Virus record (IMG/VR): IMGVR_UViG_3300036944_000156
Span: 1 to 41,411 of that record
Direction: 5' to 3' (one strand)
DNA length: 41,411 bases
Origin: a virus
Positions 11,228-32,968 of the stretch are shown here, piece by piece. The notes below the pieces were generated by a model, which saw only the letters and a list, made by a program, of their open reading frames with translations, searched no databases and had not been told where the DNA came from. The position numbers and the translations under genes are program-made. How positions within the stretch are numbered: the stretch's first letter is position 1; every line of letters begins with the position of its first letter.

Positions 11228-11963
11228 TCTGTATCACCTGACCAATGCGGTTTGGATCTCTAAGAGATTGTTCGATAAGACCAAGGAAGCTGCTTGCTGC
11301 GTAGTTCTCTGCGTAGTCTGACTGTGAGCGAGCAAAGTCACGAGCGAACATGGCTGGATCAAATCCAGTTCCTTGTGTTCCTGTTGTGCTGGATACATCG
11401 CCACTTTTAACTGTTGTCAAATCGCTAACAGTTGGTTCTTCTTTAGCCTTTTTGTTGACTGCAGCTGTGTAAGCCTTCATCTCTTTGTCTGATGCTTCGC
11501 GTCCCAGCTCAGCTTTAGATGCTGTTGTAATATCAGCAGCAGCGGAAGAAGGAGTGTATTTAGTTACAACAGAGCTTTTAGACCGTGATGTTCCATCGCC
11601 ATCAGCACCCATTGCCATAGGCGGGGAAAGTGCAATCCAGTCTTCTACGTTACCAGTTGGTGATCCGAGTGAACCAGCGTTCTTGGTAAGTTCTGCCCAT
11701 ACCTTCTTAGCAGCTGCAAAGTCTCCAGCCTTTTTAATGTGACCGTACTGAAGCATCTTAGCCATAATAATTTGGAAAGATGTCGGGTCGCTTACTGGAG
11801 AAGCGGCAAACCAACCAGTTGATTCATCAAGTAGAACTCCCTGTGTTCCAGGAATGTTTACTGGATTCATTCTGTATGTTGGTGTGCTAACGTTTGGATC
11901 AACACCAGGAGTAGAATCTATAGTGTTAGGGACTCCGTCGTTATCCCAGTCTGTTGCTGTCAC
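11220..11963 (-). CDS. Virion-cluster protein with TSP3-like calcium motif (247 aa)
   Basis: Residues 4-24 ('TDWDNDGVPNTIDSTPG') match the Asp-rich thrombospondin type 3 repeat (DxDxDGxxDxxD), a calcium-binding loop. The middle is a low-complexity Ala/Lys/Ser stretch with 'ASDKEMKAYTAAVNKKAKEE'. The end is 'YAASSFLGLIEQSLRDPNRI', a predicted helix. It overlaps the stop of the giant upstream protein by one base. Function unknown. The motif suggests a calcium-stabilised virion component. Confidence 0.65.
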   Translation of the reverse strand: MTATDWDNDGVPNTIDSTPGVDPNVSTPTYRMNPVNIPGTQGVLLDESTGWFAASPVSDPTSFQIIMAKMLQYGHIKKAGDFAAAKKVWAELTKNAGSLGSPTGNVEDWIALSPPMAMGADGDGTSRSKSSVVTKYTPSSAAADITTASKAELGREASDKEMKAYTAAVNKKAKEEPTVSDLTTVKSGDVSSTTGTQGTGFDPAMFARDFARSQSDYAENYAASSFLGLIEQSLRDPNRIGQVIQNG

Positions 11964-14900
11964 TATCTAACCACCTTTGTTGGATCTAGTTCGGGCATAG
12001 TCTCAAGCCATAGCGCCGAGAATGATGCGAAATCATTTGATGCAGATTGCACAAACTCCCAATGGAACTGTGCGAAATCAGCTTTAGTTCTAGATACAAG
12101 ACCTGGTGACACCATTGTTGTATCAATACGTGACTTGAACTCTTTAGCTTGAGTCAACCAGTACTCAATCTCTTGCCACTTAGGGCTAGATTCGTACGTA
12201 GTCTTTCTGAAGTTTGGATCGCTAAGCATTGAATCAAGTGCTGGGATAGTCTGCTTCCAGAAATCCTTTGACCTTGAATTAAAATCATCTACCCATCCTG
12301 GGAAATCCTTAACGATTTCCTTTACCTTTGATTCGAAATCATCAGCAATGCCGACTGCTTGATAAGCAGTCTGGGATGTTGACTTAATTCCATACTCAGC
12401 CATACGTGCATCACGGTACTCGGTGGCTTTACGGTACTCAGCCCACCCACGACGAGCGCTGACATCTTGAGAAAGCTCAAGGTCTGACTTCTTTTGGCTA
12501 AGCTTTGTTAGCGTTCCAGGGTAATTAAGTTCCTTGAAGATTGCAGCAACCTCGGCGGAGTACTCGCTTGTTAGGTTGTCGTATCCGCTTGATACCATTC
12601 CAGTATATTTTGGATTGATGGCAGCAAGCTTTTCCATAAGACCTGGATTGTTTCTAATAAACTTAAGGTCTGTCATGTTCTTTGATAGACCACTTACGTT
12701 CTTATCATTAGAGCCAATAAGCGCCAGGGAATCTACTCCCCAGTCTGCTTCCATCTGTCGCTGTGCTAGGTCGTAATCTCCATTAACTTCTTCAAGAAGC
12801 TGTGAGTAATACTGTGTAGCAGCACGAGTTACTGGGTCAAACTGTGTTGATAATGGCATGTTGAACTGGATAACGCTGCGGATAAAGGACATGTTGCCAG
12901 CTGCTCGTGCAGCTGTTGCCATAGTTGGTGGCTGTCCGTTGCGACCGTTACGATCCCATTCAGCGTAACCAGTGCGGTACTGAACGAATACTTCGTCTAG
13001 CCATCTGTCTCCGTTGCCCAACCTTAGTAGGTTTGCAATTGGTGAGAACGGAATACGCTCTGCACCTGCGTCAAGAAGTGACTGAAGGTATGACGGCTTG
13101 ATTGTATTAAGCACTATCTCGCCAAGGTTTCCGCCTGCTGTTGGGTATCCACCGTAAAGAATGCTGTTCTCATACACATCATCGCCGACTAGATTGCGAA
13201 GGTAGTTAGATACATCTTCTCCGTAGATTTCCCATGGACCGAGCTTGAAACCGTTTGTAATAAGATCTGAAATTGTTGCGCTACCGAACCAAGACACACT
13301 TGGGTCAGCGAGCATGAACTCCATCTGCTTTGGATTCCACTTGAGTCCACCACCACGTGAGTCGGTGTATGGCTTGAGTGCATCCTTTGCCCAGCTAGGA
13401 AGCTTGTCGCCAAATGGCATTGGGTGCTTAACTGTTACTGGGGTTCCAGGTGGAATGTCAGAAGCGTTCTTGTAAGTGTTTCCATCTTTGTCTTCGTACG
13501 CTTCAAAGTTATCAAATGCGTTGGCAATGCTTTCATACCAATAAGCATTCATTGGGTTCTTTGCCATAAGGCGAAGAGCCACAGCCTGTGAGTTGAAGAA
13601 AGCGAGAGGGAAGCTCATCATGTAACGAGCCTGGTACATACCATTGGTTAGACGGCGTGATGAGTAGAGCGTCTGCTCTACTCGTGCAAGTGCGTTACGG
13701 TAAGCAATCTGACGAATCTGATTGTTGACTGTTGCTTCTGTTACATCGATACCAGCGCGTTGCGCGTTATCGATTAAACGTACCATCTCTTCGCGGGTGT
13801 GGCTTAGGAAGAGTGGGTTGCGAACCATTCTGTTTTCTGATGCTGAAAGCACTTTCCATGCTGCATCAATTGGAGCGCCGATAACCTTTTGGTATCGCTT
13901 CTCTGCTTTTGTAATATCACCTAAAGCTATGTTTGGTCCATCAATACTAGGAAGAAGATCTGTTCTTCCCTTGAGGATCGTGGTTACTTCTTCTATAGTA
14001 ACTGGTCGCTCAAGGATTGTGTTTCGCAATTCTTGGCTTGGGTACATCTTAAGAACTTTGTCCTTTGTTGATGACACCCAGGCTACAAGCTCGTCATCTG
14101 ACATCTTGTGACCAACGCGTGAAGACAAACGACGGACGTATTCCTTGCCAGCATCACCAGTCTTTAGCCATGTAAAGATTTCCTGGTCTGGCATACCCTT
14201 GAGCATCATTCCAAGTGGCATGTCAAGTTCATTACGAATCTGACGGTTTGCCACATGAGCCAAAGCATTCATGTAAGCCTTGTCGTCATTGCGACTGATT
14301 CTAACGAATGCATTTCCAGCTGCCTTAACTCTGGCGCTAATCTGGCTTTGCATTGCTGTTGAATAAAAGTTCGCTGCTGAGTCAATCTCAGCCATGTATG
14401 CGTTTGCACCACGCTGGTTTGGATCAGCTAGTCCCTTGATGTTGTACTGCTTACCGTTAACGGTTAGTACTTCTGCTTCTTGTCCAAGCAGCTTGCGTTG
14501 TGCAAGCTCTGCTCGTGCAGTAGCGGATGGGATGAGCTTAGCTCGGTGCTTCTCGATTAAGGTTGCGCTACCCTGCATAAGCTGTGTTGCTTGTGCCTGC
14601 TTTGCAGTAGCCTCTTCAAATACCATACGTGCTTTAAAAGCGGTGTGCTCTGCTTCAAACATATCGGCTTCTGCCTGAGCTGTCTTAGACTTTCTAGCTC
14701 GTTCTGTTGCCTTATCTGCCTTGATTCTTGCATCGTTAAGAAGTTTTTCTGCGCTGCTGAGAACGTCGCTTGCTTCTTCCCAGGCAATAATCTGTGGTTG
14801 GATATCTCCTTGCAGGATTTCCATTTCTTTGATTAAAGCTTTTTCCTGACGGCGAGCTGAAGCTCCAGCCGTTCCTGGTACATAGCTCTTAAGAAGTTCT

Positions 14901-16945
14901 TTACGACGGCTAGTGTTCTGGACAATGTTTCGTAGACCAGGTGCTGCGTTAGTAAATAGTTCCATCGATTCAGTAGCCATTGATCCACGTGCAAGTGGGT
15001 CAACCATTGAGTTCTTAGGAATGTAAGCCGTACGAATAAGATTTAAATTGCTGAACAACATGTTGGCTGCATCGAACAATTCGCCAATACCCATTGATAC
15101 TTCTGTTGCCTTAGCTCCTATTAGATCCCCACGCTTGATTGGTGAGATTCCCTTAGCGCTTCTGTCAACGCCACGGAGTACTTCGATTTCAAGTAGACGG
15201 AAGTCAAGCATTGGCACTGACTGTGCTTCGTTTGACATAGCCATGAAGTTTGAATAGTTGATGCTTCCATCTTCATCTGCAATGAAGCCGTTCTTCTGTG
15301 CAAACTGTAGAACAGTTTGGCGACGGCTATCTGTCTCAGCATGCCACTTACGGATCTGCTTGACAGCATCTGCGTTATTGCGGATGTCACCAACAGACTT
15401 AACCTTGTAGTGTTCTGCAAGTCTGATCATTACTTGCTGCTCAATATCAAGCAGAGCCTTAGCTCTGTCTGTATCTGTCAGCGCAGAGATAAACTTTTCT
15501 TTCATGTCGCTCTTGAATCGAGCGCCTTCTGGACCCTTGAGGAATCGCAGGCGGTTCAAGTCTGAGACTAGATCGTTAGCTGCTTCAAACTTACGTGGGT
15601 TGGAAACGTTGATATATCCTTGAGGACGTCCAGAACCTTCGTACGCAATAAATCGTACGGCTCTGTCGTACCACTCGTTCTGGTATACAGTTGTCTTCCA
15701 AGCTGCATCTCCTGCTTCACCAAATACTTTAAGTGAGCCAAGCTTTGCTTCTGACTTAACCTTCTTGATACCAAGGTTGAGTGCTTCGTAGCGAGCAAAC
15801 TTGCCAGGAGTGAAGTCTTCAATACCTGCACCGATGCGAGTCTTTGACATGAAGTCATCGAGTGCATCAGAGAATCCTTGGTCTGTTGCACGATGTGCAT
15901 CAATAATCTTTTGGTAGCGAGCAGTCAGCTTTGGTGACAGCGCATCAATACCAATCTTAGAAAAGTCTGTAATTGGATCAAAACGGTTAAGACCGAAGTC
16001 ATCAATGTGGTCAGCCATAACTGGCTTGCTATCAAAGAACCGTACGAAAGCTGCTGTGTCCCCACGTTCTGCCATGAGGTAGTCAGCCATGTCTCGGTGG
16101 TTATCAATACGAGAAAGAATGTTTGCTGTTCGGCTTGGGTTCACAGTTCCAGAAACCAAAGGATTGTCCGCAAGGCGGGCAACGTTAGTTTCCTTAACGG
16201 CATTATCTATAAGATATGCAAGACCAGATGGTGCTTGTGATCCGTCAGCTTTAGCTCCCCAAGCAGCTGCTTCTTCAGCCTTCTGCTTGAAAAGGTTCAT
16301 GTCTTCAACGGTTGAAATCCTTGAAGGTCCAACGACCTTCTTAGCTGCTGCCTTAGTAGCAGCTCCAGCTAGCTTTCCACCTGCTGCAGCAACTGCGATA
16401 TCGGTTGCACCAGATGCAACAATGCCAAGCCATTCATCTCTAAATGCTTTATCACGTTGCACATCATTGAAGATGTCAAAATCTTTTTTGGCAAAGGTGG
16501 GAGCAATTGAATCAGGAAGCATGCCTCGTGCAGTACTAGACGCAAGTGCCTGCCCTAATGAAATCTTTTTGGCTTGCTCGCTTGCAAACCTAATGTTCTT
16601 AATCGGATTTAAAGAATCATTCTTTTCGGCTGCAGCACCGAGGAGAAGTCCTGTGCTGATGCCCTGCTGGGTTGGCTGAATAACTCTAGTGTAAAGGTTA
16701 TCCATTACTCTTAAAGCTGGGTTTACAATCCACCCTGTGTACTTATTCTTCTGACCAGATTCAATAGCGCCCTGGATTTTTGGAACAGCAAACTCCTCAA
16801 TCTTACCGACCTTGTCGTCTTTGAAGTTTACTTTTTTAAAATCGTTTACAAAAGATGAGCCATCTGTTGTTATGCCCTGGCGAGCGTTAGCTTCCTGAGT
16901 AGCGTTTCTTTCATACAGAGGTACTTCCTGGTTGGGTTCCGCCAC
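11963..16945 (-). CDS. Giant virion protein, putative internal/ejection protein (1660 aa)
   Basis: The start is a GTG at 16943-16945, nine bases after a strong AAGGAGG. The protein is largely helical and charged. An Ala/Lys segment near residues 150-250 contains 'AAAGGKLAGAATKAAAKKV', which is possibly membrane-active. A long coiled coil lies around residues 700-800 ('ARIKADKATERARKSKTAQA'). A hydrophobic stretch occurs near 1120 ('MSFPLAFFNSQAVALRLMA'). I do not recognise an enzyme. The size, the place between portal-side genes and scaffold, and the lack of a tape measure suggest an internal core protein that enters the host with the DNA, as in podoviruses. Confidence 0.75.
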   Translation of the reverse strand: MAEPNQEVPLYERNATQEANARQGITTDGSSFVNDFKKVNFKDDKVGKIEEFAVPKIQGAIESGQKNKYTGWIVNPALRVMDNLYTRVIQPTQQGISTGLLLGAAAEKNDSLNPIKNIRFASEQAKKISLGQALASSTARGMLPDSIAPTFAKKDFDIFNDVQRDKAFRDEWLGIVASGATDIAVAAAGGKLAGAATKAAAKKVVGPSRISTVEDMNLFKQKAEEAAAWGAKADGSQAPSGLAYLIDNAVKETNVARLADNPLVSGTVNPSRTANILSRIDNHRDMADYLMAERGDTAAFVRFFDSKPVMADHIDDFGLNRFDPITDFSKIGIDALSPKLTARYQKIIDAHRATDQGFSDALDDFMSKTRIGAGIEDFTPGKFARYEALNLGIKKVKSEAKLGSLKVFGEAGDAAWKTTVYQNEWYDRAVRFIAYEGSGRPQGYINVSNPRKFEAANDLVSDLNRLRFLKGPEGARFKSDMKEKFISALTDTDRAKALLDIEQQVMIRLAEHYKVKSVGDIRNNADAVKQIRKWHAETDSRRQTVLQFAQKNGFIADEDGSINYSNFMAMSNEAQSVPMLDFRLLEIEVLRGVDRSAKGISPIKRGDLIGAKATEVSMGIGELFDAANMLFSNLNLIRTAYIPKNSMVDPLARGSMATESMELFTNAAPGLRNIVQNTSRRKELLKSYVPGTAGASARRQEKALIKEMEILQGDIQPQIIAWEEASDVLSSAEKLLNDARIKADKATERARKSKTAQAEADMFEAEHTAFKARMVFEEATAKQAQATQLMQGSATLIEKHRAKLIPSATARAELAQRKLLGQEAEVLTVNGKQYNIKGLADPNQRGANAYMAEIDSAANFYSTAMQSQISARVKAAGNAFVRISRNDDKAYMNALAHVANRQIRNELDMPLGMMLKGMPDQEIFTWLKTGDAGKEYVRRLSSRVGHKMSDDELVAWVSSTKDKVLKMYPSQELRNTILERPVTIEEVTTILKGRTDLLPSIDGPNIALGDITKAEKRYQKVIGAPIDAAWKVLSASENRMVRNPLFLSHTREEMVRLIDNAQRAGIDVTEATVNNQIRQIAYRNALARVEQTLYSSRRLTNGMYQARYMMSFPLAFFNSQAVALRLMAKNPMNAYWYESIANAFDNFEAYEDKDGNTYKNASDIPPGTPVTVKHPMPFGDKLPSWAKDALKPYTDSRGGGLKWNPKQMEFMLADPSVSWFGSATISDLITNGFKLGPWEIYGEDVSNYLRNLVGDDVYENSILYGGYPTAGGNLGEIVLNTIKPSYLQSLLDAGAERIPFSPIANLLRLGNGDRWLDEVFVQYRTGYAEWDRNGRNGQPPTMATAARAAGNMSFIRSVIQFNMPLSTQFDPVTRAATQYYSQLLEEVNGDYDLAQRQMEADWGVDSLALIGSNDKNVSGLSKNMTDLKFIRNNPGLMEKLAAINPKYTGMVSSGYDNLTSEYSAEVAAIFKELNYPGTLTKLSQKKSDLELSQDVSARRGWAEYRKATEYRDARMAEYGIKSTSQTAYQAVGIADDFESKVKEIVKDFPGWVDDFNSRSKDFWKQTIPALDSMLSDPNFRKTTYESSPKWQEIEYWLTQAKEFKSRIDTTMVSPGLVSRTKADFAQFHWEFVQSASNDFASFSALWLETMPELDPTKVVR

Positions 16946-22984: not shown

Positions 22985-23008
22985 ATAAGTATTTCGCCCT
23001 ATACTTAT
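22985..23008. promoter_or_regulatory. 8-bp dyad, operator-like
   Basis: ATAAGTAT (22985-22992) and its exact reverse complement ATACTTAT (23001-23008) are separated by eight bases. Further AAGTAT copies are at 22922 and 23050. The arm spacing of 16 bp centre to centre suits a dimeric HTH protein. It is a candidate late-operon operator. Confidence 0.4.
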
Positions 23009-23122
23009 ATAGGGGGCTAGAGCGTCGGCGTGTTTCAAGAGCAAATCCAAAGTATTTTTAATTATTTATATAAGTGCTGGTCAGATCCATGTTTATCTGG
23101 TGAAAATTATTGGGTTGATAGT

Positions 23123-23161
23123 GGGGGGGTAGGTGGGGGGTGGTTGTTAACATGGGGGGGG
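23123..23161 (+). other. G-rich tract with quadruplex potential
   Basis: Runs of seven, six and eight guanines lie within 39 bases on the plus strand, between short T/A-containing spacers. The longer runs can each supply more than one GGG tract. The tract lies in the non-coding control region. Confidence 0.55.
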
Positions 23162-23231
23162 TCTGCATGGGCGCACGAATAGCCCACCCAAATGCATGGG
23201 CAGGCTAGGGAAAACGTGTGCGCGGGCAGGC

Positions 23232-23265
23232 AAAAACCCCCGCTTGCCTGTGTAGGGGCGGGGGT
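23232..23265 (-). terminator. Rho-independent terminator of the 90-aa gene
   Basis: On the minus strand an ACCCCCGC / GCGGGGGT stem with a 14-base loop is followed directly by TTTTT. It lies about 30 bases beyond the stop of the minus-strand gene at 23295 and would keep its transcript from entering the late operon. Confidence 0.75.
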
Positions 23266-23294
23266 GTCTGCTGACTATCTATAGAGGCGAACCC

Positions 23295-23567
23295 CTATGC
23301 ATTGACGCGCTTCATGATGACGCGAAACTTATCTGAAACTATGCTGAACTCAAGCGTCCCGCGATTCTCCGCGATGTCGAACACGATACCTACGCGACCC
23401 TTACCGATGTGGACGAGGTCGCCTAGCTGTGCGTACTTGAGCGTAACTAATTCAAAATCTGGAACATGATTCAGGCTTGGTACGCCGTACTCCTTGCGTA
23501 CCTCAAGCACCTCTGCCTTGAGGTCTGCGAGTATGTCGTTGTGTGTCCATGCTGTGAGTGTGTTCAT
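23295..23567 (-). CDS. Unknown small protein with its own promoter and terminator (90 aa)
   Basis: Begins 'MNTLTAWTHNDILADLKAEV'. The middle 'LGDLVHIGKGRVGIVFDIAE' looks like a small beta barrel (SH3- or KOW-like), and the end is 'FSIVSDKFRVIMKRVNA'. The mRNA leader carries CCAACCAACGAAAGG, the same leader found before plus-strand early genes. A consensus promoter (23624-23652) and a terminator (23232-23265) make it a stand-alone unit that diverges from the early genes. An early regulator is possible; the function is not established. Confidence 0.75.
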   Translation of the reverse strand: MNTLTAWTHNDILADLKAEVLEVRKEYGVPSLNHVPDFELVTLKYAQLGDLVHIGKGRVGIVFDIAENRGTLEFSIVSDKFRVIMKRVNA

Positions 23568-23623
23568 TGTGAAGCCTTTCGTTGGTTGGATGTTGAGCCG
23601 ACCAGTTCAGCCCAACGACAACC

Positions 23624-23652
23624 AGAATACGGCAACGGCAGCCAAATGTCAA
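23624..23652 (-). promoter_or_regulatory. Consensus sigma-70-type promoter
   Basis: On the minus strand TTGACA (23647-23652) and TATTCT (23624-23629) are 17 bases apart. Transcription would begin about 50 bases before the ATG of the 90-aa gene. It is the best match to a housekeeping bacterial promoter in the window. Confidence 0.75.
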
Positions 23653-23735
23653 TTCTGAGCGTGAAATCTCGGTATGTCTGCCCTATGTGACGTCATCCAC
23701 CCACCCAGCATGCACCCCTTGCGCCCTGTGTGCCT

Positions 23736-23770
23736 CGTACGCGGGCTTGTACGCCCGCTTTGTGCGTACG
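23736..23770. promoter_or_regulatory. Nested GC-rich dyad in the divergent intergenic region
   Basis: The outer arms CGTACGC and GCGTACG enclose an inner hairpin GCGGGC-TTGTAC-GCCCGC. It lies between the divergent promoters in an otherwise empty 330-base gap (23568-23897). Possible roles are a bidirectional transcription block, a regulator site or an origin element; none can be chosen from sequence. Confidence 0.4.
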
Positions 23771-23820
23771 GATCACGCGCATCCGCATGGGCATATGACA
23801 CGCCCTGCGCCTGTCTTTCT

Positions 23821-23850
23821 TTGATAACAGAGCAAAGCTCTGTTTGATAA
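23821..23850 (+). promoter_or_regulatory. Promoter-leader cassette 1 (inverted repeat in spacer)
   Basis: TTGATA is followed by an inverted repeat AACAGAGC-AAA-GCTCTGTT and then TGATAA, about 18 bases between the boxes. A GAAAGGA ribosome site and the ATG at 23898 follow. The arrangement is the same as at 25055 and 26281 with different stem sequence. I infer the promoter of the rightward early genes. Confidence 0.5.
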
Positions 23851-23897
23851 AGGGGGCTGGACAAACGTTCAGCGAACTTACCGAAAGGATTCACCGA

Positions 23898-24071
23898 ATG
23901 ATTACAGATTACCTATTGCCAACCGATTACATCGCTATCGGTTGCTTGCTCACTGTGGTTGGCGCATTGTTCGCTGGTCTAGTGTGGGACGTAGTCGCGT
24001 CAAAGATAGCAGACCAAAGGTCTGCTGATATAGAGAACCACTGGGCTACAACAATTCGAGAGGAACGATAA
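23898..24071 (+). CDS. Small single-pass membrane protein (57 aa)
   Basis: The start at ATG 23898 has GAAAGGA eight bases upstream; a longer reading would begin inside the promoter hairpin. Residues 10-32 ('YIAIGCLLTVVGALFAGLVW') form one membrane helix, followed by a charged C-terminus. It is the first rightward early gene. Function unknown; early phage membrane proteins often act on the host envelope or exclude other phages. Confidence 0.7.
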   Translation: MITDYLLPTDYIAIGCLLTVVGALFAGLVWDVVASKIADQRSADIENHWATTIREER

Positions 24072-24247
24072 TGGATTACCAAATCAAACTCAATCACCAA
24101 GAAGACGAACTCGCACCTCGCGGGACGACTTACTTCGCAGAAATCCTGAAGATGGATGGCACATCTCTAGGAGAAATGGACGGCACATCATGGCAAGACG
24201 CAATCATCAAGATGATTGATTACCTACAAGAGACAGGAGAAATCTAA
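24071..24247 (+). CDS. Unknown small protein (58 aa)
   Basis: TAATG overlap with the preceding gene. Begins 'MDYQIKLNHQEDELAPRGTT' and ends 'WQDAIIKMIDYLQETGEI'. It looks like a small alpha/beta protein and is mildly acidic. Similar tiny proteins occur near the two genes that follow in actinophages, as far as I recall. No function assigned. Confidence 0.65.
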   Translation: MDYQIKLNHQEDELAPRGTTYFAEILKMDGTSLGEMDGTSWQDAIIKMIDYLQETGEI

Positions 24248-24607
24248 ATGGGAGCACGTATCAATTTCGTACTGAAAGTATATCCGAAAGAGCAAGCACA
24301 CGTCACGCTCTACTCACACTGGGGCGAGACGAACTGGAGACAGGACTTAGCGTTGGCTTTAGCCAAGGCTGAGCCACGTTGGACAGACCAGAACTACGCT
24401 GCCCGAATAGTTGTATCACAACTAATCGGTGAGGACTGGGATAAGGAGACAGGCTACGGCTTGTTCACATCTGTTGACGGCGAGGACTTAGGGGACACCA
24501 CTGTAGTGGTGGACTTTACAAATCAAATCGTCAATGATACAGGCAACGAACATTCGTTCGGTGCATTCATCGAATACCAACAGGAAATGGTGGAATATCA
24601 TGGGTAA
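24248..24607 (+). CDS. Conserved-type actinophage protein of unknown function (119 aa)
   Basis: The pattern 'AHVTLYSHWGETNWRQDLAL' and 'LIGEDWDKETGYGLFTS...DTTVVVDF' is one I recall from many actinobacteriophage early regions. The function remains unknown. ATG directly follows the upstream TAA. It is acidic and soluble with no membrane segment. Confidence 0.75.
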   Translation: MGARINFVLKVYPKEQAHVTLYSHWGETNWRQDLALALAKAEPRWTDQNYAARIVVSQLIGEDWDKETGYGLFTSVDGEDLGDTTVVVDFTNQIVNDTGNEHSFGAFIEYQQEMVEYHG

Positions 24608-24872
24608 TAGCACAGCGCAAGACCTAGTAGAGAATGTCATTGACATTCGCCAATCAATCGCAATCCAATTGCGTAGCAATCACTACCCGCCAGTGCCACT
24701 CAGCATGGTGGAACCATGCATCGAGGCTATCTATGCAGTATCGGAAGGCGATACTCATAAGAGTATCCAACTACCAGAGGGCATCACGTGGCGGGAGTAT
24801 CCAACCGCTCCCGCGTATGCGATCGTGGAGTCTCATCACCTCGAGCCATGGTGTGACTATGACAACGACTAA
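24600..24872 (+). CDS. Conserved-type actinophage protein of unknown function (90 aa)
   Basis: The start at ATG 24600 overlaps the upstream gene by eight bases. 'NHYPPVPLSMVEPCIEAIYA' and 'APAYAIVESHHLEPW' are hallmarks of a small actinophage family usually next to the previous gene. The protein is soluble and acidic. No biochemical role is known to me. Confidence 0.75.
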   Translation: MGNSTAQDLVENVIDIRQSIAIQLRSNHYPPVPLSMVEPCIEAIYAVSEGDTHKSIQLPEGITWREYPTAPAYAIVESHHLEPWCDYDND

Positions 24873-25044
24873 GCATCTATATGACATGACCCGAGAGGAA
24901 CTAGCGCAGGTGATATGCGTATTCTGTGGAGTCAATGCAATGGATGAGTACGCCTGTCGCAACAATCTCAAGGACAACTACGCCTATTGCAGTGAGTGCT
25001 GTGCCGATGAACTAGAGGACAGTGGCACATCATGCTGCGGGTAA
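24859..25044 (+). CDS. Small zinc-finger-like protein (61 aa)
   Basis: Starts at ATG 24859, inside the end of the upstream gene. Cysteine pairs 'CVFCG' (20-23) and 'CSECC' (45-49), a further C33, and 'CCG' at the C-terminus suggest one zinc-binding site. Probably a small nucleic-acid or protein-binding factor; the function is unassigned. Confidence 0.65.
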   Translation: MTTTKHLYDMTREELAQVICVFCGVNAMDEYACRNNLKDNYAYCSECCADELEDSGTSCCG

Positions 25045-25054
25045 CACACATCTC

Positions 25055-25116
25055 AAGATAGCACAGCAAAGCTGTGCGTATATAGAGGGAGCAACACCAA
25101 CCAACCAACGAAAGGA
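25055..25116 (+). promoter_or_regulatory. Promoter-leader cassette 2 (inverted repeat in spacer)
   Basis: AAGATA is followed by GCACAGC-AAA-GCTGTGC (25061-25077), TATATA (25079-25084), and then the leader ACACCAACCAACCAACG with AAAGGA. The layout and leader repeat at 26281-26340. I read it as a promoter with TATATA as -10. An RNA hairpin role is the alternative. Confidence 0.6.
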
Positions 25117-25122
25117 ATGACA

Positions 25123-25851
25123 ATGCAAGCAACACTGAAACGCAGTAATGACCGCAAGGTAACCAACCTTGTGACGCCTAACGGCAAGCAATCAGCAATC
25201 GCTAATACATTTGGGCTGCCAGCAGGCAAAGACTTCTCCTGCCCAGGTGCAACATCTATCTGTTCTAAGGTTTGCTACGCTGGAAAACTTGAGAAGGTAT
25301 ACAAGGGAGTGCGAGATGTACTGATGCACAACTGGAATCTTCTTAAGGATGCTGACGTCAACCAAATGGTTGACATGCTCGATGACATGATCCTTGATTT
25401 CATCAAGGACTGTGACCGCCGACAAGCACCGAAGGTATTCCGCATTCATTGGGACGGAGACTTCTTCAACACAACTTACGAGTATGCATGGCAGAAAGTA
25501 ATCATGATGCACCCCGACGTTAAGTTCTGGGCATACACACGAGTCGAGTCCGCTGCTTATTCCCTATCGGGACTTGACAATCTCTCGCTGTACTACAGTA
25601 CAGATGCAGACAACAAGCATATCGCTGACAAGGTACGTAGTACCAGCATCGATACCAAACTGGCATACCTCGCTGATACATTCGAGGATGCTAAGCAAGA
25701 CATGCTTAGCATGACTGGCAAGGTAGGGGCTAAGTGTCCCGAGAATAACAAGAGCATCCCGCTTATCAGTACCACTGGCTCAGCATGCTTCAGCTGCGGG
25801 CTATGCATCAACGGCAAAGCCGACATCCGATTCAGCGCAACCAAGAAATGA
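25123..25851 (+). CDS. GP88-family protein (242 aa)
   Basis: The ATG at 25123 is six bases after the AAAGGA ribosome site. An ATG at 25117 is directly adjacent to it and less likely. The N-terminal region 'GKDFSCPGATSICSKVCYAG' and the C-terminal 'ACFSCGLCINGKADI', together with 'FRIHWDGDFFNTTYEYAW' in the middle, fit the 'gene product 88' family of mycobacteriophages. Cysteines cluster at both ends and could hold a metal or iron-sulphur centre. The function is not known. It is first in its own promoter unit, implying strong early expression. Confidence 0.8.
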   Translation: MQATLKRSNDRKVTNLVTPNGKQSAIANTFGLPAGKDFSCPGATSICSKVCYAGKLEKVYKGVRDVLMHNWNLLKDADVNQMVDMLDDMILDFIKDCDRRQAPKVFRIHWDGDFFNTTYEYAWQKVIMMHPDVKFWAYTRVESAAYSLSGLDNLSLYYSTDADNKHIADKVRSTSIDTKLAYLADTFEDAKQDMLSMTGKVGAKCPENNKSIPLISTTGSACFSCGLCINGKADIRFSATKK

Positions 25852-25858
25852 GGACAAC

Positions 25859-26170
25859 ATGAACGCATCATTTAGAATCGAGCAAGTAAGTTTCTTACTT
25901 ACTCAGTACCGAGAAGCAATGCACCGCCCAGGTATGGGTGACCTTGCTATATGGGAAACGCTTAAGACATACTACAAAGAGCCCGAAGAGTGGGACATAG
26001 TGCTCACCTCTACACAAGAGGAAGCATTCGACCGCATGGTATCTGATCGCTGGAACGTGGATATGGGTGACCATTTCTATGGTCTGGACTACGACACCAT
26101 TGATGAACTAGTACTTCAGTACCTGAAGGACAACCAATTAGTAACCGAGATACCAGAGGAGGAAGAGTAA
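25859..26170 (+). CDS. Unknown acidic protein (103 aa)
   Basis: ATG 25859 follows TGAGGAC, a good ribosome site. A helical, acidic protein with 'LKTYYKEPEEWDIVL' and an EEEE tail. Its stop overlaps the next ATG (TAATG). No family recognised. Confidence 0.65.
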   Translation: MNASFRIEQVSFLLTQYREAMHRPGMGDLAIWETLKTYYKEPEEWDIVLTSTQEEAFDRMVSDRWNVDMGDHFYGLDYDTIDELVLQYLKDNQLVTEIPEEEE

Positions 26171-26772
26171 TGCCTGTAATGTGCGACGATTGCAAGTGTA
26201 GTAACTGGCTCTGCAAATCTTGCGGAGAATACAGCAATGATTGTGGATGCGACTGCTGCTTGTGTCCATGCCAGCGTCAAGATAGCACATCTTTAGATGT
26301 GCATATATATAAGAGTGACACCAACCAACCAACGAAAGGAAGTACAATGACCGAACCAATTACAATGAGCGAGATTGACCTGCTCAATATCGAACTAGCA
26401 AATGTAAGAAGCACATCCGATTCACTGCGTGATTCACTCAACCGATCACGCAATAACGTACGAGATATCTTCACCTTCATCAACGATTACATCGAGGAGA
26501 ATGACCTCAACGTAGACGATGACATCCCGCTATCCGAACTCAACAACCTGCTAAGCAGTGCGTTTGGTAGCGAGCTTGTCTTCGACAAGGAGTATGAAGT
26601 GCAAGTGCAGTACACAGCCTATGCTACCTTCACCATCCGAGCCAAGGATGAGGATGCAGCATCCGAAGAAGCAATGAACATTGAAATGTTCGAACCATCC
26701 TTTGACGAAGACGCAGAAGATATACAGTCAGAGGTTGACCGCATCGTATACATCAACAAGAAGGGACGATAA
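26170..26772 (+). CDS. Cys-rich N-terminus read in frame into the next protein (200 aa long form)
   Basis: The ATG at 26170 is coupled to the upstream gene by TAATG. The first 34 residues hold eleven cysteines (for example 'CDDCKCSNWLCKSCGEY' and 'CGCDCCLCPC'), suggesting a compact zinc site. There is no stop before the promoter-leader cassette at 26281-26340, so the frame runs through it into the protein starting at 26347. Either a 200-residue fusion is made from the upstream transcript, or the Cys-rich part is translated with a useless tail. Function unknown. Confidence 0.5.
   Translation: MPVMCDDCKCSNWLCKSCGEYSNDCGCDCCLCPCQRQDSTSLDVHIYKSDTNQPTKGSTMTEPITMSEIDLLNIELANVRSTSDSLRDSLNRSRNNVRDIFTFINDYIEENDLNVDDDIPLSELNNLLSSAFGSELVFDKEYEVQVQYTAYATFTIRAKDEDAASEEAMNIEMFEPSFDEDAEDIQSEVDRIVYINKKGR
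26281..26340 (+). promoter_or_regulatory. Promoter-leader cassette 3 (inverted repeat in spacer)
   Basis: GATA is followed by GCACATC-TTTA-GATGTGC (26285-26302), TATATATA (26303-26310) and the leader ACACCAACCAACCAACG with AAAGGA. Compared with the 25055 copy, the stem differs on both arms in a compensating way, while the TATA box and leader are kept. It lies inside an open reading frame. Confidence 0.6.
26347..26772 (+). CDS. Acidic coiled-coil protein, short form (141 aa)
   Basis: The ATG at 26347 lies six bases after AAAGGA of the leader cassette, the same geometry as the GP88 gene, so this is probably the main start. Residues 10-50 form a helix ('MSEIDLLNIELANVRSTSDS'). The C-terminal half 'YEVQVQYTAYATFTIRAKDE' with 'DAASEEAMNIE' is a beta-alpha unit seen in many small phage proteins. 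No function assigned. The stop overlaps the next ATG. Confidence 0.7.
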   Translation: MTEPITMSEIDLLNIELANVRSTSDSLRDSLNRSRNNVRDIFTFINDYIEENDLNVDDDIPLSELNNLLSSAFGSELVFDKEYEVQVQYTAYATFTIRAKDEDAASEEAMNIEMFEPSFDEDAEDIQSEVDRIVYINKKGR

Positions 26773-27044
26773 TGATAGCCGAAATCCATGCAGTACCAAG
26801 GTTAGGTGACCGCACCAAGAATGGTGCAGTCATCATAGATATCAAGCCAGCCTGGGATTCATCAGGCTACGTAGCACTCTGCCTATGGGTAGAGGACACG
26901 CAGTTAGAAGTACCAACCCGACGCACCGTTGACCCATATGTCACATGGTTCGTACGATCAGAGGAAGGCAAGATCGTCTGCACTCAGGGTCATTACTTCG
27001 ACCAGCTAAGCGTAGCCATAGTTGATTTCGACAGCCGTATATAG
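26772..27044 (+). CDS. Unknown small protein (90 aa)
   Basis: TAATG overlap with the upstream gene. A beta-rich sequence with 'TKNGAVIIDIKPAWDSSGYV' and 'DPYVTWFVRSEEGKIVCTQG'. Residue patterns resemble small phage SH3-like proteins. Its end carries the TATATA box of the next transcription unit. Function unknown. Confidence 0.65.
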   Translation: MIAEIHAVPRLGDRTKNGAVIIDIKPAWDSSGYVALCLWVEDTQLEVPTRRTVDPYVTWFVRSEEGKIVCTQGHYFDQLSVAIVDFDSRI

Positions 27045-27084
27045 TAAGATGCAACCAACAACCAACCAACCGAAAGGAACTACC
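27038..27084 (+). promoter_or_regulatory. TATA box and CCAACC leader before the DUF932 gene
   Basis: GTATATAG (TATATA at 27038-27043) is followed by CAACCAACAACCAACCAACC and GAAAGGA, then ATG at 27085. The -10-like box, leader and ribosome site match the other cassettes, but no inverted repeat precedes the box. This argues that the box and leader are the shared core. Confidence 0.5.
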
Positions 27085-28062
27085 ATGAATAACCTAACAA
27101 TCAAGTCACGACGCAATGCTTACAGCATTGTAGGTAAGGAAGTAACAGCAACATCAGCACGTTCAGCAGCCGAGCAAGCGGGCATTGACTGGACAGTATC
27201 TCTTGCAGATTTGCAAGCGCTAGCACTTAACGACAGTGGTGTGAGCACACTCGATGTACCCAACAAGTTCGCTACTATCCGTACGAACAAGGACGGTGGT
27301 CAATCTGTACTAGGTACAGTAGGTGGACGATACAAGGTGCTCCAGAATGGCGAGATGTTTAGCGCACTGGATGCACTGGTTGACTCAGGAGATGCACGAT
27401 ATGCATATGCTGGTGAAATCAAAGGCGGAGCACAGGTATACATGGTGCTCGAGCTACCCAAAGATGTGAAGATTGGCAACGACCCACACAAGGCTTACCT
27501 CGTAGCACGAACATCACATGATGGATCATGTGCATTACAGATAGCACCAAGCGTCAACCGATTACGATGCACCAATCAAATCGCTGGCATCTTTAATAAG
27601 TCTGCGACTTATACTCTCAAGCACACAACCAACGCTGACTTCAGCATCGAAGATATCAAGCGCATCATCCCTGTTACCTATACAGGTATCGAACAGTACG
27701 AACTCATCGGTAACAAGCTCATCGGTGAAACCGTAAGCGACCAAGAGGTAGACACCATCTTCAAGAAGATGTGGTCACTGCCTAGCGGTATCGAACAAGC
27801 ACCTTACAACATGCTCAGCACTGGCGAGAAGGGTAGATACAACCGAGCAATGACAGCACGTTCGACAGCCAAGGCTATCTATCGTGGTGACACTGGCACA
27901 CAGGAAGAACTGTACGGCACAGCGTTCGGTGCATTCCAAGCCATCGTCGAGTACGTCGACCACTACAGCCACGCTAAGGAAGCAACACGAGCTGAGCGTA
28001 ACCTCACTGGTATGGCTGACAAAGCAAAGACACAGGCACTCAGCCTAGTAATGAAGGGATAA
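27085..28062 (+). CDS. DUF932 / TIGR03299 phage-plasmid-like protein (325 aa)
   Basis: The start at ATG 27085 sits behind the leader's GAAAGGA; an upstream reading would include the leader. The sequence 'LGTVGGRYKVLQNGEMFSAL' near 75-95, 'GEIKGGAQVYMVLELPKDV' near 115-133 and 'VNRLRCTNQIAGIF' near 170-184 are hallmarks of this family, found in many phages and plasmids. The molecular role is unknown. A strong leader implies abundant early product. Confidence 0.88.
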   Translation: MNNLTIKSRRNAYSIVGKEVTATSARSAAEQAGIDWTVSLADLQALALNDSGVSTLDVPNKFATIRTNKDGGQSVLGTVGGRYKVLQNGEMFSALDALVDSGDARYAYAGEIKGGAQVYMVLELPKDVKIGNDPHKAYLVARTSHDGSCALQIAPSVNRLRCTNQIAGIFNKSATYTLKHTTNADFSIEDIKRIIPVTYTGIEQYELIGNKLIGETVSDQEVDTIFKKMWSLPSGIEQAPYNMLSTGEKGRYNRAMTARSTAKAIYRGDTGTQEELYGTAFGAFQAIVEYVDHYSHAKEATRAERNLTGMADKAKTQALSLVMKG

Positions 28063-28065
28063 CAC

Positions 28066-28269
28066 ATGACTGACAACAACGAGGAACTGTACGTCCAGCC
28101 CACCATATCGGTGAGGCTGGCGCAGTACCTACTCAAATCACTGGACTACATGCACATCCATGCTCAACAGACAGACAACCCAAGCATCATCGAGCCTGAG
28201 TTGCATGCCGAAGGTGAGGACGCCATGACTGACATCGTGCTGGACTCACCACTACCAGAGGATAACTAA
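28066..28269 (+). CDS. Unknown acidic small protein (67 aa)
   Basis: 'ISVRLAQYLLKSLDYMHIHA' is a helix, and the remainder is acidic with 'MTDIVLDSPLPEDN' at the end. Four bases separate it from the DUF932 gene, and it overlaps the following ATG (TAATG). No family recognised. Confidence 0.6.
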   Translation: MTDNNEELYVQPTISVRLAQYLLKSLDYMHIHAQQTDNPSIIEPELHAEGEDAMTDIVLDSPLPEDN

Positions 28270-28493
28270 TGGGCAAGCTGGTAGACAAGGACATACTTAA
28301 GACACGCCCACCCTCACTACAAATCCAGCCAATCGCTGGATGGTCATGGTACTGCGGGTATCATGACACCTATGGAATCGGAGACGATGAGGAAGAGGTG
28401 CTCTTCATGGCAGGAGCACACATGCATTACTTCAGGATCTCGGATGACTGCGAGATAGCAACACGAGAACACAACGTAAAGGAGGAAGCATGA
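28269..28493 (+). CDS. Unknown small protein (74 aa)
   Basis: Aromatic-rich: 'GWSWYCGYHDTYGIGDDEEE' and 'AGAHMHYFRISDD'. Overlaps both neighbours (TAATG before, ATGA after). The last codons contain the AAAGGAGGAAG ribosome site for the next tiny gene. Function unknown. Confidence 0.6.
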   Translation: MGKLVDKDILKTRPPSLQIQPIAGWSWYCGYHDTYGIGDDEEEVLFMAGAHMHYFRISDDCEIATREHNVKEEA

Positions 28494-28621
28494 TACATGT
28501 AGCTAGCGTCGTACTTATCTGTGCATACTGCAATGCAGAGATAGAACGCAAGAGTGAAGTCGAAGCACGTGATGCACTCAATGAGCACTACTCATATGTG
28601 CAATGCATTAAGGGATACTAG
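28490..28621 (+). CDS. Tiny protein with Cys pair (43 aa)
   Basis: ATG at 28490 behind AAAGGAGG, ATGA overlap with the upstream gene, stop TAG at 28619-28621 overlapping the next GTG. Sequence 'MIHVASVVLICAYCNAEIER' has a CAYC pair, with a third cysteine near the end; a zinc knuckle is possible. The very strong ribosome site supports it. Confidence 0.6.
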   Translation: MIHVASVVLICAYCNAEIERKSEVEARDALNEHYSYVQCIKGY

Positions 28622-28938
28622 TGGGCAAGCCACGTCCAACAGAGATTAGATTGGTAGCCAATCTAATAGACCCTGATGCAACTAACCCCGAAGGTGCTGC
28701 GGATATGGCTGTTGAAATCATTGAGGCTCTGGATAAATCCAGAGTTAAACGTGAGTCATACATAGTCGTAGCAAAGTTGGCGGACTGGGTTCCTCTTCAA
28801 GCATGGGGGGAATTCAGTACCCGATTGCAAGCAGAGAAGTTCTTCCCGCTGCTATCAGCGCCAGGTCCTGGCGATGGCAAGGCAGCGGTAGCACGACTGG
28901 AAGATCCAGATACATTTCGTACTAGGATGGGAGAATAA
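28621..28938 (+). CDS. Unknown protein with GTG start (105 aa)
   Basis: The GTG at 28621 shares a base with the upstream TAG (TAGTG). It has an alpha/beta style with 'IRLVANLIDPDATNPEGAAD' and 'SYIVVAKLADWVPLQAWGEF'. No family recognised. Confidence 0.6.
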   Translation: MGKPRPTEIRLVANLIDPDATNPEGAADMAVEIIEALDKSRVKRESYIVVAKLADWVPLQAWGEFSTRLQAEKFFPLLSAPGPGDGKAAVARLEDPDTFRTRMGE

Positions 28939-29106
28939 ATGTTCTACAACGGATTCACTTTGCTTATGCAATTACTAGCTGGCGTAGCTGCCTACCATGT
29001 GGGAAGATACTATGGTATTGTTGAAGGCAAGCGAGAGCTTAGCGAAACTTACAAGTCAATTGAACGTGCAAAGAGAGAAGCTTTTTCCAAGTTGGTTGGA
29101 AAATAA
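28939..29106 (+). CDS. Small membrane-anchored protein (55 aa)
   Basis: ATG 28939 immediately after the upstream TAA, with GGGAGAA as ribosome site. Residues 4-26 ('NGFTLLMQLLAGVAAYHVGR') are hydrophobic enough for one membrane helix, followed by a charged helix. It is the last rightward gene before the shared terminator. Function unknown. Confidence 0.6.
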   Translation: MFYNGFTLLMQLLAGVAAYHVGRYYGIVEGKRELSETYKSIERAKREAFSKLVGK

Positions 29107-29110
29107 GGGG

Positions 29111-29140
29111 AAGGCGGGGGCTTATGCCTCCGCCTTTTTC
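29111..29140. terminator. Bidirectional terminator between converging operons
   Basis: AAGGCGGGGGC and GCCTCCGCCTT form an 11-bp stem (one G-T pair) with loop TTAT, followed by TTTTTC on the plus strand. It ends the rightward genes. The stop codon and last residues of the minus-strand glycosyltransferase are encoded within its stem. Confidence 0.85.
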
Positions 29141-29862
29141 TCTTTCATATCCGCGAATGTCTGCGTAATCCAATACAACTTATAGAATTCCTCATCGAAT
29201 GAGAAGCGCTTCATATGTTTAACTGTCGCACCAGTATGTGCATGTAATGGGACGCCAGCTTCCTTCATCTTCATGAAGAAGTGGATGTCCTCACCAATAA
29301 ACTTATCGTCGTTACCATCTGATGTCTCCATAAAGAAAGACTTATCACCATGGAACTGACGCATCTTGTCAGCTGCACTGCGGTGCAGCAGGAAGAAACC
29401 AAACCCAGCGTAGTCAACCTTAAGTACCTCATCCTTTGGTAAAGGATGGATGTATGACATGACGTACCGATCATCAGGGTGTGCCATGAACAGGGAAGGG
29501 AACGGCTGCATCAAAGCCTTCTCATTCTCCTTGGATATAAAGTAGGTCCCGCTAACAGCAGGTCGCTCGACAGCATCAGCTGTCTCCCATACTTTAGCTA
29601 GTGCTTCGTTCGTAAGAACGATGTCGCTATCTACCCAGAGAATCCATTCAGTATCTAGTCCGTCGTACCACATATCGAATGCAGCTTGTCGCTGCCTTGC
29701 TATCTGATTACCTTGAGTGCGACCAGCGTTGACGATAGGTAGACCAGAGGTGAGCAGCGAGTAGACCAAACCTTCAGCGAACTTGCCGTCAACCAATCCG
29801 TTATCACACCAGACCAGCATGATCTTTCCCTTGCTTACGGGTTTCTTGTTACCCTTGGACAT
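29122..29862 (-). CDS. GT-A-type glycosyltransferase (246 aa)
   Basis: The start at ATG 29860-29862 ('MSKGNKKPVSKGK') overlaps the upstream gene by 14 bases. The Rossmann-like opening 'KIMLVWCDNGLVDGKFAEGL' is followed by 'TEWILWVDSDIVLTNEALAK' with a DxD motif at 78-80, which in GT-A enzymes binds metal and nucleotide sugar. 'YAGFGFFLLHRSAADKM' and 'FIGEDIHFFMKMKEAG' are the acceptor-site and catalytic ED segments of family 2-like enzymes. It could glycosylate phage DNA bases, virion or host envelope; the target is unknown. Confidence 0.8.
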   Translation of the reverse strand: MSKGNKKPVSKGKIMLVWCDNGLVDGKFAEGLVYSLLTSGLPIVNAGRTQGNQIARQRQAAFDMWYDGLDTEWILWVDSDIVLTNEALAKVWETADAVERPAVSGTYFISKENEKALMQPFPSLFMAHPDDRYVMSYIHPLPKDEVLKVDYAGFGFFLLHRSAADKMRQFHGDKSFFMETSDGNDDKFIGEDIHFFMKMKEAGVPLHAHTGATVKHMKRFSFDEEFYKLYWITQTFADMKEKKAEA

Positions 29863-31255: not shown

Positions 31256-31900
31256 TTAGTTAATAGCATTGACGAGGTCTGTCAATGCTTGTGCTCCTTG
31301 GTCTACAATTATACTATTGATGTCGCTGTTTGGTGGTAGCGACACGCGGATGGCTTGAGGAATTGCATCCTGTAATCGACGAGCTAAGTCCTGCCCTGGG
31401 TTGGAGCCGTCTTCCTTAACATCATTGTCGGTTGCGATTACAACCGTACCAATCCCATCAAAGCACCTACTAAAGTAAGGCTTCCAAGCGTTAACACCAG
31501 CAACGGCAACAGCGGGGTGTCCAGCAAGAGTCGCGCTAATCGCATCTATCTCTCCTTCAACTATGAGCACCTGGCTAACCGCGTTGAGGATTGCATCAAC
31601 GTTATATAAGTGGTGCTTCTGACCAGTTGGAATCATATACTTTGGGTCACCGCCATCGATGCGACGAAACTTAAACCCAACTACACCAGCCCCTGTTATA
31701 TAGGGGATGGATAGGTGATGCTTAAGTCTGTCTTCGTGACCAGGTGCAACCTCGGCTACATATCCTAGTAAAAATTTTTCAGCACCATCAAGGATGCCTC
31801 GGGTCGCTAGATATTCTTCTGCTGGTGAGCCAGCAAGGGATGCATGGTATTGATGTGCTGCTTTAGTCCAGAGTTCTATTAGCTTTGGGTTGGTTCTCAT
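31256..31900 (-). CDS. DNA primase, RNA polymerase/TOPRIM part (214 aa)
   Basis: Residues 60-100 ('HHLSIPYITGAGVVGFKFRR' then 'IDGGDPKYMIP') match the N-subdomain of the DnaG catalytic core. Residues 108-165 are the TOPRIM fold with E115 in VLIVEGEIDA and D158/D160 in IATDND. The zinc-binding domain that DnaG normally carries at its N-terminus is instead encoded by a separate gene (32636-32968), two genes upstream. This part is coupled to the small gene before it by ATGA. Confidence 0.9.
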   Translation of the reverse strand: MRTNPKLIELWTKAAHQYHASLAGSPAEEYLATRGILDGAEKFLLGYVAEVAPGHEDRLKHHLSIPYITGAGVVGFKFRRIDGGDPKYMIPTGQKHHLYNVDAILNAVSQVLIVEGEIDAISATLAGHPAVAVAGVNAWKPYFSRCFDGIGTVVIATDNDVKEDGSNPGQDLARRLQDAIPQAIRVSLPPNSDINSIIVDQGAQALTDLVNAIN

Positions 31901-32115
31901 TGTAACTCCTTTTCAATAGCCTGAATAGTAGGACAGGGATAGTATTCAAACCCTTGACCGCACTCCGAACACCTTAAGTCTGACCCATCTATGTCGTTTG
32001 AATTGTCATATGGCTTATGCAATTCCACTACTGCACGAATTGCAGATGTGTATTCGTCATAGGGATTGCCTTCTATTGCATAATCAATTTTTGCCAGCAA
32101 TTCATCGTGTGTCAT
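31897..32115 (-). CDS. Small protein with zinc-site cysteines (72 aa)
   Basis: 'MTHDELLAKIDYAIEGNP' is helical, followed by 'LRCSECGQGFEYYPCPTIQA' with three cysteines and a CxxC pair. ATGA overlaps on both sides link it to the HslV-like gene and the primase. I recognise no family. Its constant company with primase parts suggests a replication accessory. Confidence 0.6.
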   Translation of the reverse strand: MTHDELLAKIDYAIEGNPYDEYTSAIRAVVELHKPYDNSNDIDGSDLRCSECGQGFEYYPCPTIQAIEKELQ

Positions 32116-32639
32116 AGCCTCTTCTGTTTCCTCATAATGAATGGAGGTGCAGTATACACGTCATTCTTTGCAGCGATAGTCAAAGCTTCTTTCCACCCAG
32201 CACCTTGGGCTAAAGCTCCGAGTGCAAATGACGAGCCAGAACCTACGCCGTACAAACCGTCATCACGTAGGTAGATAGAATAGGAATCATCTATCTCGTA
32301 GATGGTTCCATGTATGGCAACGATCAGTTGAAAGCCACTGTCGCTTGAGTCTTTGTCTGGCTGATAGCCAGACTCTTTAATACATTCACGTAAGCTTGGA
32401 GCTACAATAGTAATCATCCATGTGTATAAGTTCTTACCAACAGGTGCAACAGGTGGACGCCATACATGTTGGATGATGTCACATGGTTGCACGTCACCAG
32501 CACCAGCGATGAGCCACTGCCCACGCTTGGTTATCTTGGTGATGGTTGGATGTGAGTACGGACGTGAGTCCGCTGTCGTTCGTGAGTCAGCTGCTATGAA
32601 GCAGTGATCATCTTTTTGTACCGCAATAATAGTTGTCAT
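32112..32639 (-). CDS. HslV/proteasome-like Ntn-hydrolase (175 aa)
   Basis: The start at ATG 32637-32639 gives 'MTTIIAVQKDDHCFIAADSR', so the nucleophile threonine becomes residue 1 after Met removal, as in HslV. D18 (in AADSR) and K35 (in ITKIT) sit where HslV has catalytic Asp and Lys. 'LIAGAGD', 'LYGVGSGSSFALGAL' and 'AAKNDVYTAPPF' match the HslV strands and last helix. The length is that of HslV. No HslU ATPase is encoded here. It lies between the two primase genes, with ATGA overlaps on both sides. Substrate unknown. Confidence 0.8.
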   Translation of the reverse strand: MTTIIAVQKDDHCFIAADSRTTADSRPYSHPTITKITKRGQWLIAGAGDVQPCDIIQHVWRPPVAPVGKNLYTWMITIVAPSLRECIKESGYQPDKDSSDSGFQLIVAIHGTIYEIDDSYSIYLRDDGLYGVGSGSSFALGALAQGAGWKEALTIAAKNDVYTAPPFIMRKQKRL

Positions 32640-32968
32640 CTTGCACGTAACCTTGGGGGTGTCCACCGTCCTGACGAGCGTGACTTGCCACGTCCTGACA
32701 CAGCAGAGGGGTTGGATTTTTCTTTGCCGATATTCTTTTCTGCCCATGAACGAGCCTCTGGGTATGTTAAGTTCTCACGAGCCATAACGATCTGTATTCC
32801 AGAACCGCTAGCAGCACATGCATAACATACCCAGACGCCCTTGTCTGAGTTTACCGAAGCAGACTTCTTTGAATCATCGTGTACTGGACACAGGATTGAC
32901 TTCTCACCTTGCGGTAAGTCCAATCCGTAATGATTAAATACTGCTTCAAGAAACTCAGGCTGATTCAT
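32636..32968 (-). CDS. Primase zinc-binding domain protein (110 aa)
   Basis: A CHC2-type zinc domain: C27-x2-H30 (CPVH) and C48-x2-C51 (CYAC), with 'GVWVCYACAASGSGIQIVMA' as in DnaG. The basic tail (85-110) follows. It recognises the priming site in DnaG-type primases. Here it is a separate polypeptide from the catalytic part at 31256-31900. The ATG lies three bases from the transglycosylase stop. Confidence 0.88.
   Translation of the reverse strand: MNQPEFLEAVFNHYGLDLPQGEKSILCPVHDDSKKSASVNSDKGVWVCYACAASGSGIQIVMARENLTYPEARSWAEKNIGKEKSNPSAVSGRGKSRSSGRWTPPRLRAR

Follow-up and report, generated by a model that had tools for sequence, protein, structure and literature searches.

Repeated, covarying hairpin cassettes in a freshwater phage family suggest folded DNA as a promoter part

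In a family of freshwater phages, a block of genes appears to be started from repeated hairpin switches whose letters vary while their pairing never breaks, which suggests folded DNA as a part of the promoter. We examined these hairpin cassettes in the IMG/VR virus record IMGVR_UViG_3300036944_000156 (41,411 bp, analysed whole and hereafter called the window), a podovirus-type phage related to the Beephvirinae, and in related contigs. Judging by covariation among the relatives, pairing of the cassette stem is almost certainly under selection. As to what the pairing serves, we incline to read the cassettes as promoters whose recognition site includes, as a component under selection, a short hairpin formed in the DNA (cruciform).

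Results

Hairpin cassettes and covariation of their stems

Each of the four cassettes in the window consists of GATA, a perfect 7-bp stem, a loop of 3-4 nt, an AT box, a leader and a ribosome-binding site (Table 1). Hairpin sites at 23821, 25055 and 26281 had been described in the initial annotation and all are present; the cassette at 24003-24035 had been missed and is added here. A consensus built from the three sites with 3-nt loops matches the window at exactly those three (0.07 expected), and the leader ACCAACCAACCAAC occurs far above chance, with 8 matches at no more than two mismatches against 0.31 expected.

Contigs linked to the window through the GP88 protein carry the same cassettes with different stems. 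Related IMG/VR contigs yielded 117 distinct cassettes, every one perfectly paired (117/117), and no imperfect cassette was recognised beside them; seemingly imperfect stems were either other registers of perfect cassettes or unrelated-looking sequence. Among the 43 distinct cassettes that align without gaps, 301 of 301 stem cells are Watson-Crick paired, with 68 double changes, located at five stem pairs, and 0 one-sided changes. None of 500 shuffles of these cassettes matched this result (shuffles reach 78%, slid partners 24-41%). All four pair types occur at stem positions 4 and 6, yet both are paired in 43/43. Three scans of viral contigs, using patterns that leave the inner four base pairs free, split into 101 fully paired matches versus 23 with three of the four pairs; removal of one in-gene repeat type leaves 98 of the former, and the 23 seem, judging by context, to be unrelated sequence. 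The bacterial genomes scanned for the cassette gave 15 matches in scattered taxa, by our estimate about the number expected by chance.

Pairing is also kept where length changes. At the site with a GGGGGG leader, the spacer is 15, 16, 17 or 18 nt long and is fully paired at each length, between near-constant flanks (GTCAAAGATA and TTATWAAGGGGGG). It is because every stem cell is paired with only double changes, and because spacers of varying length are always paired, that we conclude in favour of selection on pairing. The initial annotation had argued from three sites that both arms change together and that pairing itself is selected, and had suggested a motif search for the cassette in related genomes, where uncompensated arm changes would count against it. 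The first claim holds on 43 cassettes, the second is borne out by covariation and by the paired spacers of varying length, and the search found no uncompensated change among the 43 aligned cassettes.

Other features of the set also appear constrained. The stems have fixed bases, R-C-A-N-A-N-C, the cassettes of the relatives keep their position before start codons, and seven genomes hold between two and five copies apiece in cassette context, always on the strand that carries the corresponding gene cluster. At the cassette 2 site, compared in 17 sequences, no variation is seen in the stem codons GCA, GAC and TCT, synonymous sites included, and in one phage an RR to YK double change preserves pairing. 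These data bear on two alternative explanations. Template-switch correction of quasi-palindromes is known in bacteria, and it could keep such repeats perfect with no selection on pairing. We regard this mutational artefact as the least likely of the explanations considered, since no imperfect intermediate was recognised among the 117 cassettes, the site before start codons and the fixed stem bases show selection, and the in-gene stem codons do not vary even at synonymous sites. An operator bound as ordinary duplex by a dimeric repressor or activator would fit a promoter-region palindrome with several copies per genome. However, a dimer would allow its half-sites to drift independently, whereas positions 4 and 6 vary fully while staying paired; length changes of 1-3 nt and the presence of both odd and even loops also argue against it. 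We rejected this very improbable reading because the half-sites change together.

The cassettes as candidate promoters

In the divergent region before cassette 1, compared in 29 relatives, there are two conserved islands, the promoter of the minus-strand gene and the cassette, and the sequence between them is weakly conserved and varies in length. Promoters were scored by a sigma-70 test for a TTGACA-like -35 and a TAnnnT -10 (A2, T6) at 16-18 nt, with a threshold of 9/12. The minus-strand promoter, our positive control, scored at least 9/12 in 28/29 relatives, in agreement with the consensus promoter previously assigned to the gene at 23567, whereas the cassette did so in 1/29. No conserved sigma-70-like promoter was found upstream of cassette 1, where 5/29 relatives reach 9/12, versus 5.5% in shuffles. 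The cassette is a conserved island, the control is recovered in 28/29 relatives, and the sequence upstream has no conserved element to compare with it. This makes the cassette the strongest candidate for a promoter of the plus strand, and one that does not conform to the sigma-70 consensus.

Like sigma-70-type promoters, the cassette has two boxes ca. 18 nt apart followed by a leader and ribosome-binding site, and the AT box near the leader lies in the place of the -10 hexamer of the DUF932-gene promoter. Unlike them, it fails TTGACA/TATAAT with A2 and T6 in 28/29 relatives and varies in spacer length; T at position 6 is mostly missing from the AT boxes. A spacer of 15-18 nt between near-constant flanks argues against a fixed linear distance between -35 and -10. 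Thus, the earlier reading of GATA and TATATA as -35 and -10 stands in part: a hairpin in a promoter spacer is favoured, but classical roles for the two elements are not, given the failed sigma-70 test, the variable spacer and a loose box at the 24005 site. The proposal of a fourth cassette site at 27038 was not borne out. Its TATATA is probably incidental, falling in the spacer of an ordinary sigma-70-like promoter that is separate from the cassettes (Table 1) and has similar counterparts, likewise without a hairpin, in relatives.

The same geometry could in principle make a supercoil-dependent off switch, in which GATA and the AT box are read as -35 and -10 in linear DNA and the promoter is closed once the spacer hairpin extrudes. 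When the hairpin of phage N4 was placed between the -35 and -10 of the rrnB promoter, in vivo activity was killed and novobiocin restored it (PMC4496689), and most cassettes have 17-19 nt to a TATA-like box. That laboratory construct shares with the cassette a hairpin in the spacer (PMC4496689); unlike it, the cassette arrangement is natural, repeated and conserved. We consider an off switch improbable: the length changes of the spacer should harm a linear on-state, the fixed stem bases suggest recognition, and most AT boxes are without the T at position 6.

DNA or RNA hairpin

The 32 unique cassette stems contain 0 G.T among 224 pairs, versus 58 G.U in 332 pairs for the predicted hairpins of the leaders directly downstream, the latter counted by energy folding, a method that favours such pairs. 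The loops of unique cassettes are GAA (14), AAA (12), TTTA (3) and GTA (2), and the closing pair is C-G in 29/36, so that C(GAA)G, C(AAA)G and C(GTA)G predominate; complements of loops both occur, as GAA and TTC and as TTTA and TAAA. Extrusion of the N4 hairpin requires a C:G closing pair plus G and A in the loop (PMC4496689), and by this analysis the cassette loops belong to a type prone to extrusion in DNA. DNA is favoured over RNA because G.T pairs are absent, the loops are DNA-stable and no conserved sigma-70-like promoter lies upstream of cassette 1. The initial annotation had offered a cruciform or an RNA hairpin; stems, loops and promoter context better support a cruciform in the spacer, and support the RNA hairpin less.

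An RNA hairpin in a 5' leader or intergenic region, acting in stability, processing or antitermination, would have transcripts that begin upstream of GATA. Stems that covary without exception are typical of RNA elements, cassette 2 sits within an upstream gene and may be co-transcribed with it, and hairpins with TTCG or TCCG loops occur in early leaders of the Beephvirinae. We nevertheless hold this alternative to be doubtful, as cassette stems have no G.U pairs whereas neighbouring leader hairpins do, cassette loops differ from stable RNA tetraloops, the 29 relatives share no sigma-70-like promoter 5' of cassette 1, and a search of Rfam 15 gave no match above the gathering score within 23000-29200.

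Two sets of other hairpins were seen in relatives. In L005, L008, L012, L017 and other contigs, the second cassette's GGGGGG is directly followed by another hairpin, of the GGGGACGGCAAATCGCTGTCCCC type and with G.U pairs; the leader begins with it, and it may represent an RNA hairpin at the 5' end. In the Streptomyces phages Immanuel3 and Zeigle (L194 and L195), many minus-strand early genes at 37-44 kb have TTCG- or TCCG-loop hairpins with differing stems just before the ribosome-binding site. No GATA cassette was recognised in these two phages or in ct2KA10.

Proposed mechanism and candidate readers

In the mechanism we propose, negative supercoiling would extrude the palindrome of 6-8 bp that separates GATA from the AT box, and a stable loop, mostly C-G closed, would keep the hairpin in place. 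The folded form would be the active form: the transcription machinery would read GATA, the fixed stem bases and the hairpin itself, the AT box would be melted, and transcription would start close to the G/A-rich bases that come next, so that the mRNA would have a leader and ribosome-binding site of its own. A phage factor, perhaps its sigma, would direct the polymerase. On our preferred reading, these are DNA-hairpin promoters that work like the early promoters of N4, without a recognisable N4-type polymerase and perhaps read through the phage sigma. More tentatively, the extruded hairpin may be a positive recognition element for the host multi-subunit RNA polymerase with a phage sigma, instead of one for a single-subunit polymerase of the N4 type.

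The window encodes a phage sigma-70-family factor (Table 1) that also matches TIGR02937 over residues 23-203, under the cut-off of that family, and is 77-82% identical across six cassette-bearing relatives. It is possibly the reader of the cassettes. Two large proteins were considered as polymerases and set aside. The first, a 1,660-aa protein (11963-16945, minus strand; family phrog_10618), has no Pfam or PDB sequence match, and its mostly helical model (predicted local distance difference test score, pLDDT, 52, which is poor) has long helices that resemble an ejection protein, which it perhaps is. The second, of 637 aa, went unnamed by any search made, and its conserved sequence and place beside Beephvirinae structural genes suggest a tail protein.

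Several observations weigh against a DNA-hairpin promoter, in addition to the bias of the folding method noted above. Because GATA/TATA motifs and gene context guided the collection of the cassettes, diverged or imperfect ones could escape. The AT box is loose at cassette 2, where it is coding. Hairpins are present in early leaders of the Beephvirinae relatives, some with TTCG loops suited to RNA. A PHROG search of 37 window proteins returned none named RNA polymerase, and a Pfam RNA_pol search of eight phage genomes gave no match even in the controls, which makes it a weak test. Diverged forms of the sigma factor also occur in Beephvirinae and in ct2KA10, neither of which has a recognised cassette. 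Finally, the C(GNA)G and ANA loops of the cassettes lie predominantly on the non-template strand, in contrast to N4, whose loop is on the template strand; template-strand GAA (a TTC loop) is found in a minority of cassettes.

Discussion

The early promoters of the N4 virion RNA polymerase (Schitoviridae) likewise stand in several copies ahead of a gene cluster and have a short stem with a 3-nt loop; like many cassettes they combine a C-G closing pair with GNA loops, and their stems have fixed and free bases, pairing alone mattering in the latter (PMC4496689, PMC3715699). The N4-type form, a stem of 5-7 bp with a 3-nt loop and pairing kept, is found in the cassettes, whose stems are mostly 7 bp and whose loops are 3 or 4 nt. 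Unlike N4 promoters, the cassette has GATA before the stem and an AT box after it, no N4-type RNA polymerase was recognised, and the relatives of the phages concerned are actinobacterial podoviruses rather than N4. We do not claim membership of the N4 class, since most GNA loops lie on the opposite strand and no N4 polymerase was recognised. The ESAS elements of cluster K mycobacteriophages are also repeated inverted repeats just 5' of non-structural gene starts in actinobacterial phages, but their 17-bp arms lack support for base-pairing and are tied to the 13-bp SAS (PMC3203893). The window has 0 matches to the SAS, GGGATAGGAGCCC, at no more than two mismatches. Our literature search found no paper describing a GATA-hairpin cassette.

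To our knowledge, N4 and its relatives are the only established case of DNA-hairpin promoters. If the cassettes are such promoters, cruciform-dependent initiation would have evolved more than once, in a second, unrelated phage group, and would provide a natural gyrase-sensitive switch open to testing. With so many naturally compensated stems at hand, selection on DNA versus RNA can also be tested through sequence statistics.

Genomic context

The minus strand of the window carries structural genes (T7-type terminase, portal, major head protein) and replication genes (DnaB, primase, exonuclease, RusA and the sigma factor). The plus-strand cluster extends from ~23.9 to 28.9 kb and includes the GP88 gene, assigned by Pfam, and the DUF932 gene. 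The named relatives are the Streptomyces Beephvirinae, whose gene set is similar; a search of phage GenBank records with the window gave no close DNA match.

Table 1. Positions of the cassettes and neighbouring features in the window
Feature	Position	Strand	Description
Cassette 1	23821..23852	+	TTGATA, stem ACAGAGC 23827-23833, loop AAA, arm GCTCTGT 23837-23843; from 23823: GATA-ACAGAGC-AAA-GCTCTGT-TTGATAAAG; AT box TTGATAAA, then GGGGG; would serve first gene of plus-strand cluster (ATG 23898); kept at same divergent site in 29 relatives
Cassette 2	24003..24035	+	AAGATA, stem GCAGACC 24009-24015, loop AAA, arm GGTCTGC 24019-24025, TGATATAGAG; from 24005: GATA-GCAGACC-AAA-GGTCTGC-TGATATAG; within small upstream open reading frame, shortly before next start codon (ATG 24071)
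Cassette 3	25055..25087	+	AAGATA, stem GCACAGC 25061-25067, loop AAA, arm GCTGTGC 25071-25077, GTATATAGAG; from 25057: GATA-GCACAGC-AAA-GCTGTGC-GTATATAG; 5' of GP88-family gene (ATG 25117 or 25123)
Cassette 3 leader	25094..25116	+	CCAACC leader and GAAAGGA ribosome-binding site
Cassette 4	26279..26315	+	AAGATA, stem GCACATC 26285-26291, loop TTTA, arm GATGTGC 26296-26302, ATATATATAAGAG; from 26281: GATA-GCACATC-TTTA-GATGTGC-ATATATATAAG; upstream of ATG 26347
Cassette 4 leader	26318..26341	+	CCAACC leader and GAAAGGA ribosome-binding site
Sigma-70-like promoter of minus-strand gene 23567-23295	23624..23652	-	TTGACA-17-TATTCT; positive control
Sigma-70-like promoter of DUF932 gene (ATG 27085)	27022..27050	+	TTGATT-17 nt-TAAGAT; no hairpin
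Terminator-like hairpin	29106..29141	+	End of plus-strand cluster
Phage sigma-70-family factor, 213 aa	30028..30666	-	phrog_354, E 1.5e-17; Sigma70_r4 above cut-off

Elsewhere in the window, a gene at 32115-32747 (minus strand) resembles HslV/proteasome-type peptidases (phrog_1040, E 4.6e-29; Pfam Proteasome slightly under its cut-off), and DNA primase-like sequence occurs in two separate minus-strand genes, at 31259-31900 and 32639-32968. A perfect hairpin of another kind, GATACTC-ATAA-GAGTATC at 24750-24767, sits inside overlapping reading frames, with no promoter features noticed, and is also found in relatives L004, L006, L007, L008 and L034. More distant phage contigs contain ParS-like palindromes of the GTTTCATGTGAAAC type, near 2128 in L059, L060 and L061 and near 2371 in L075.

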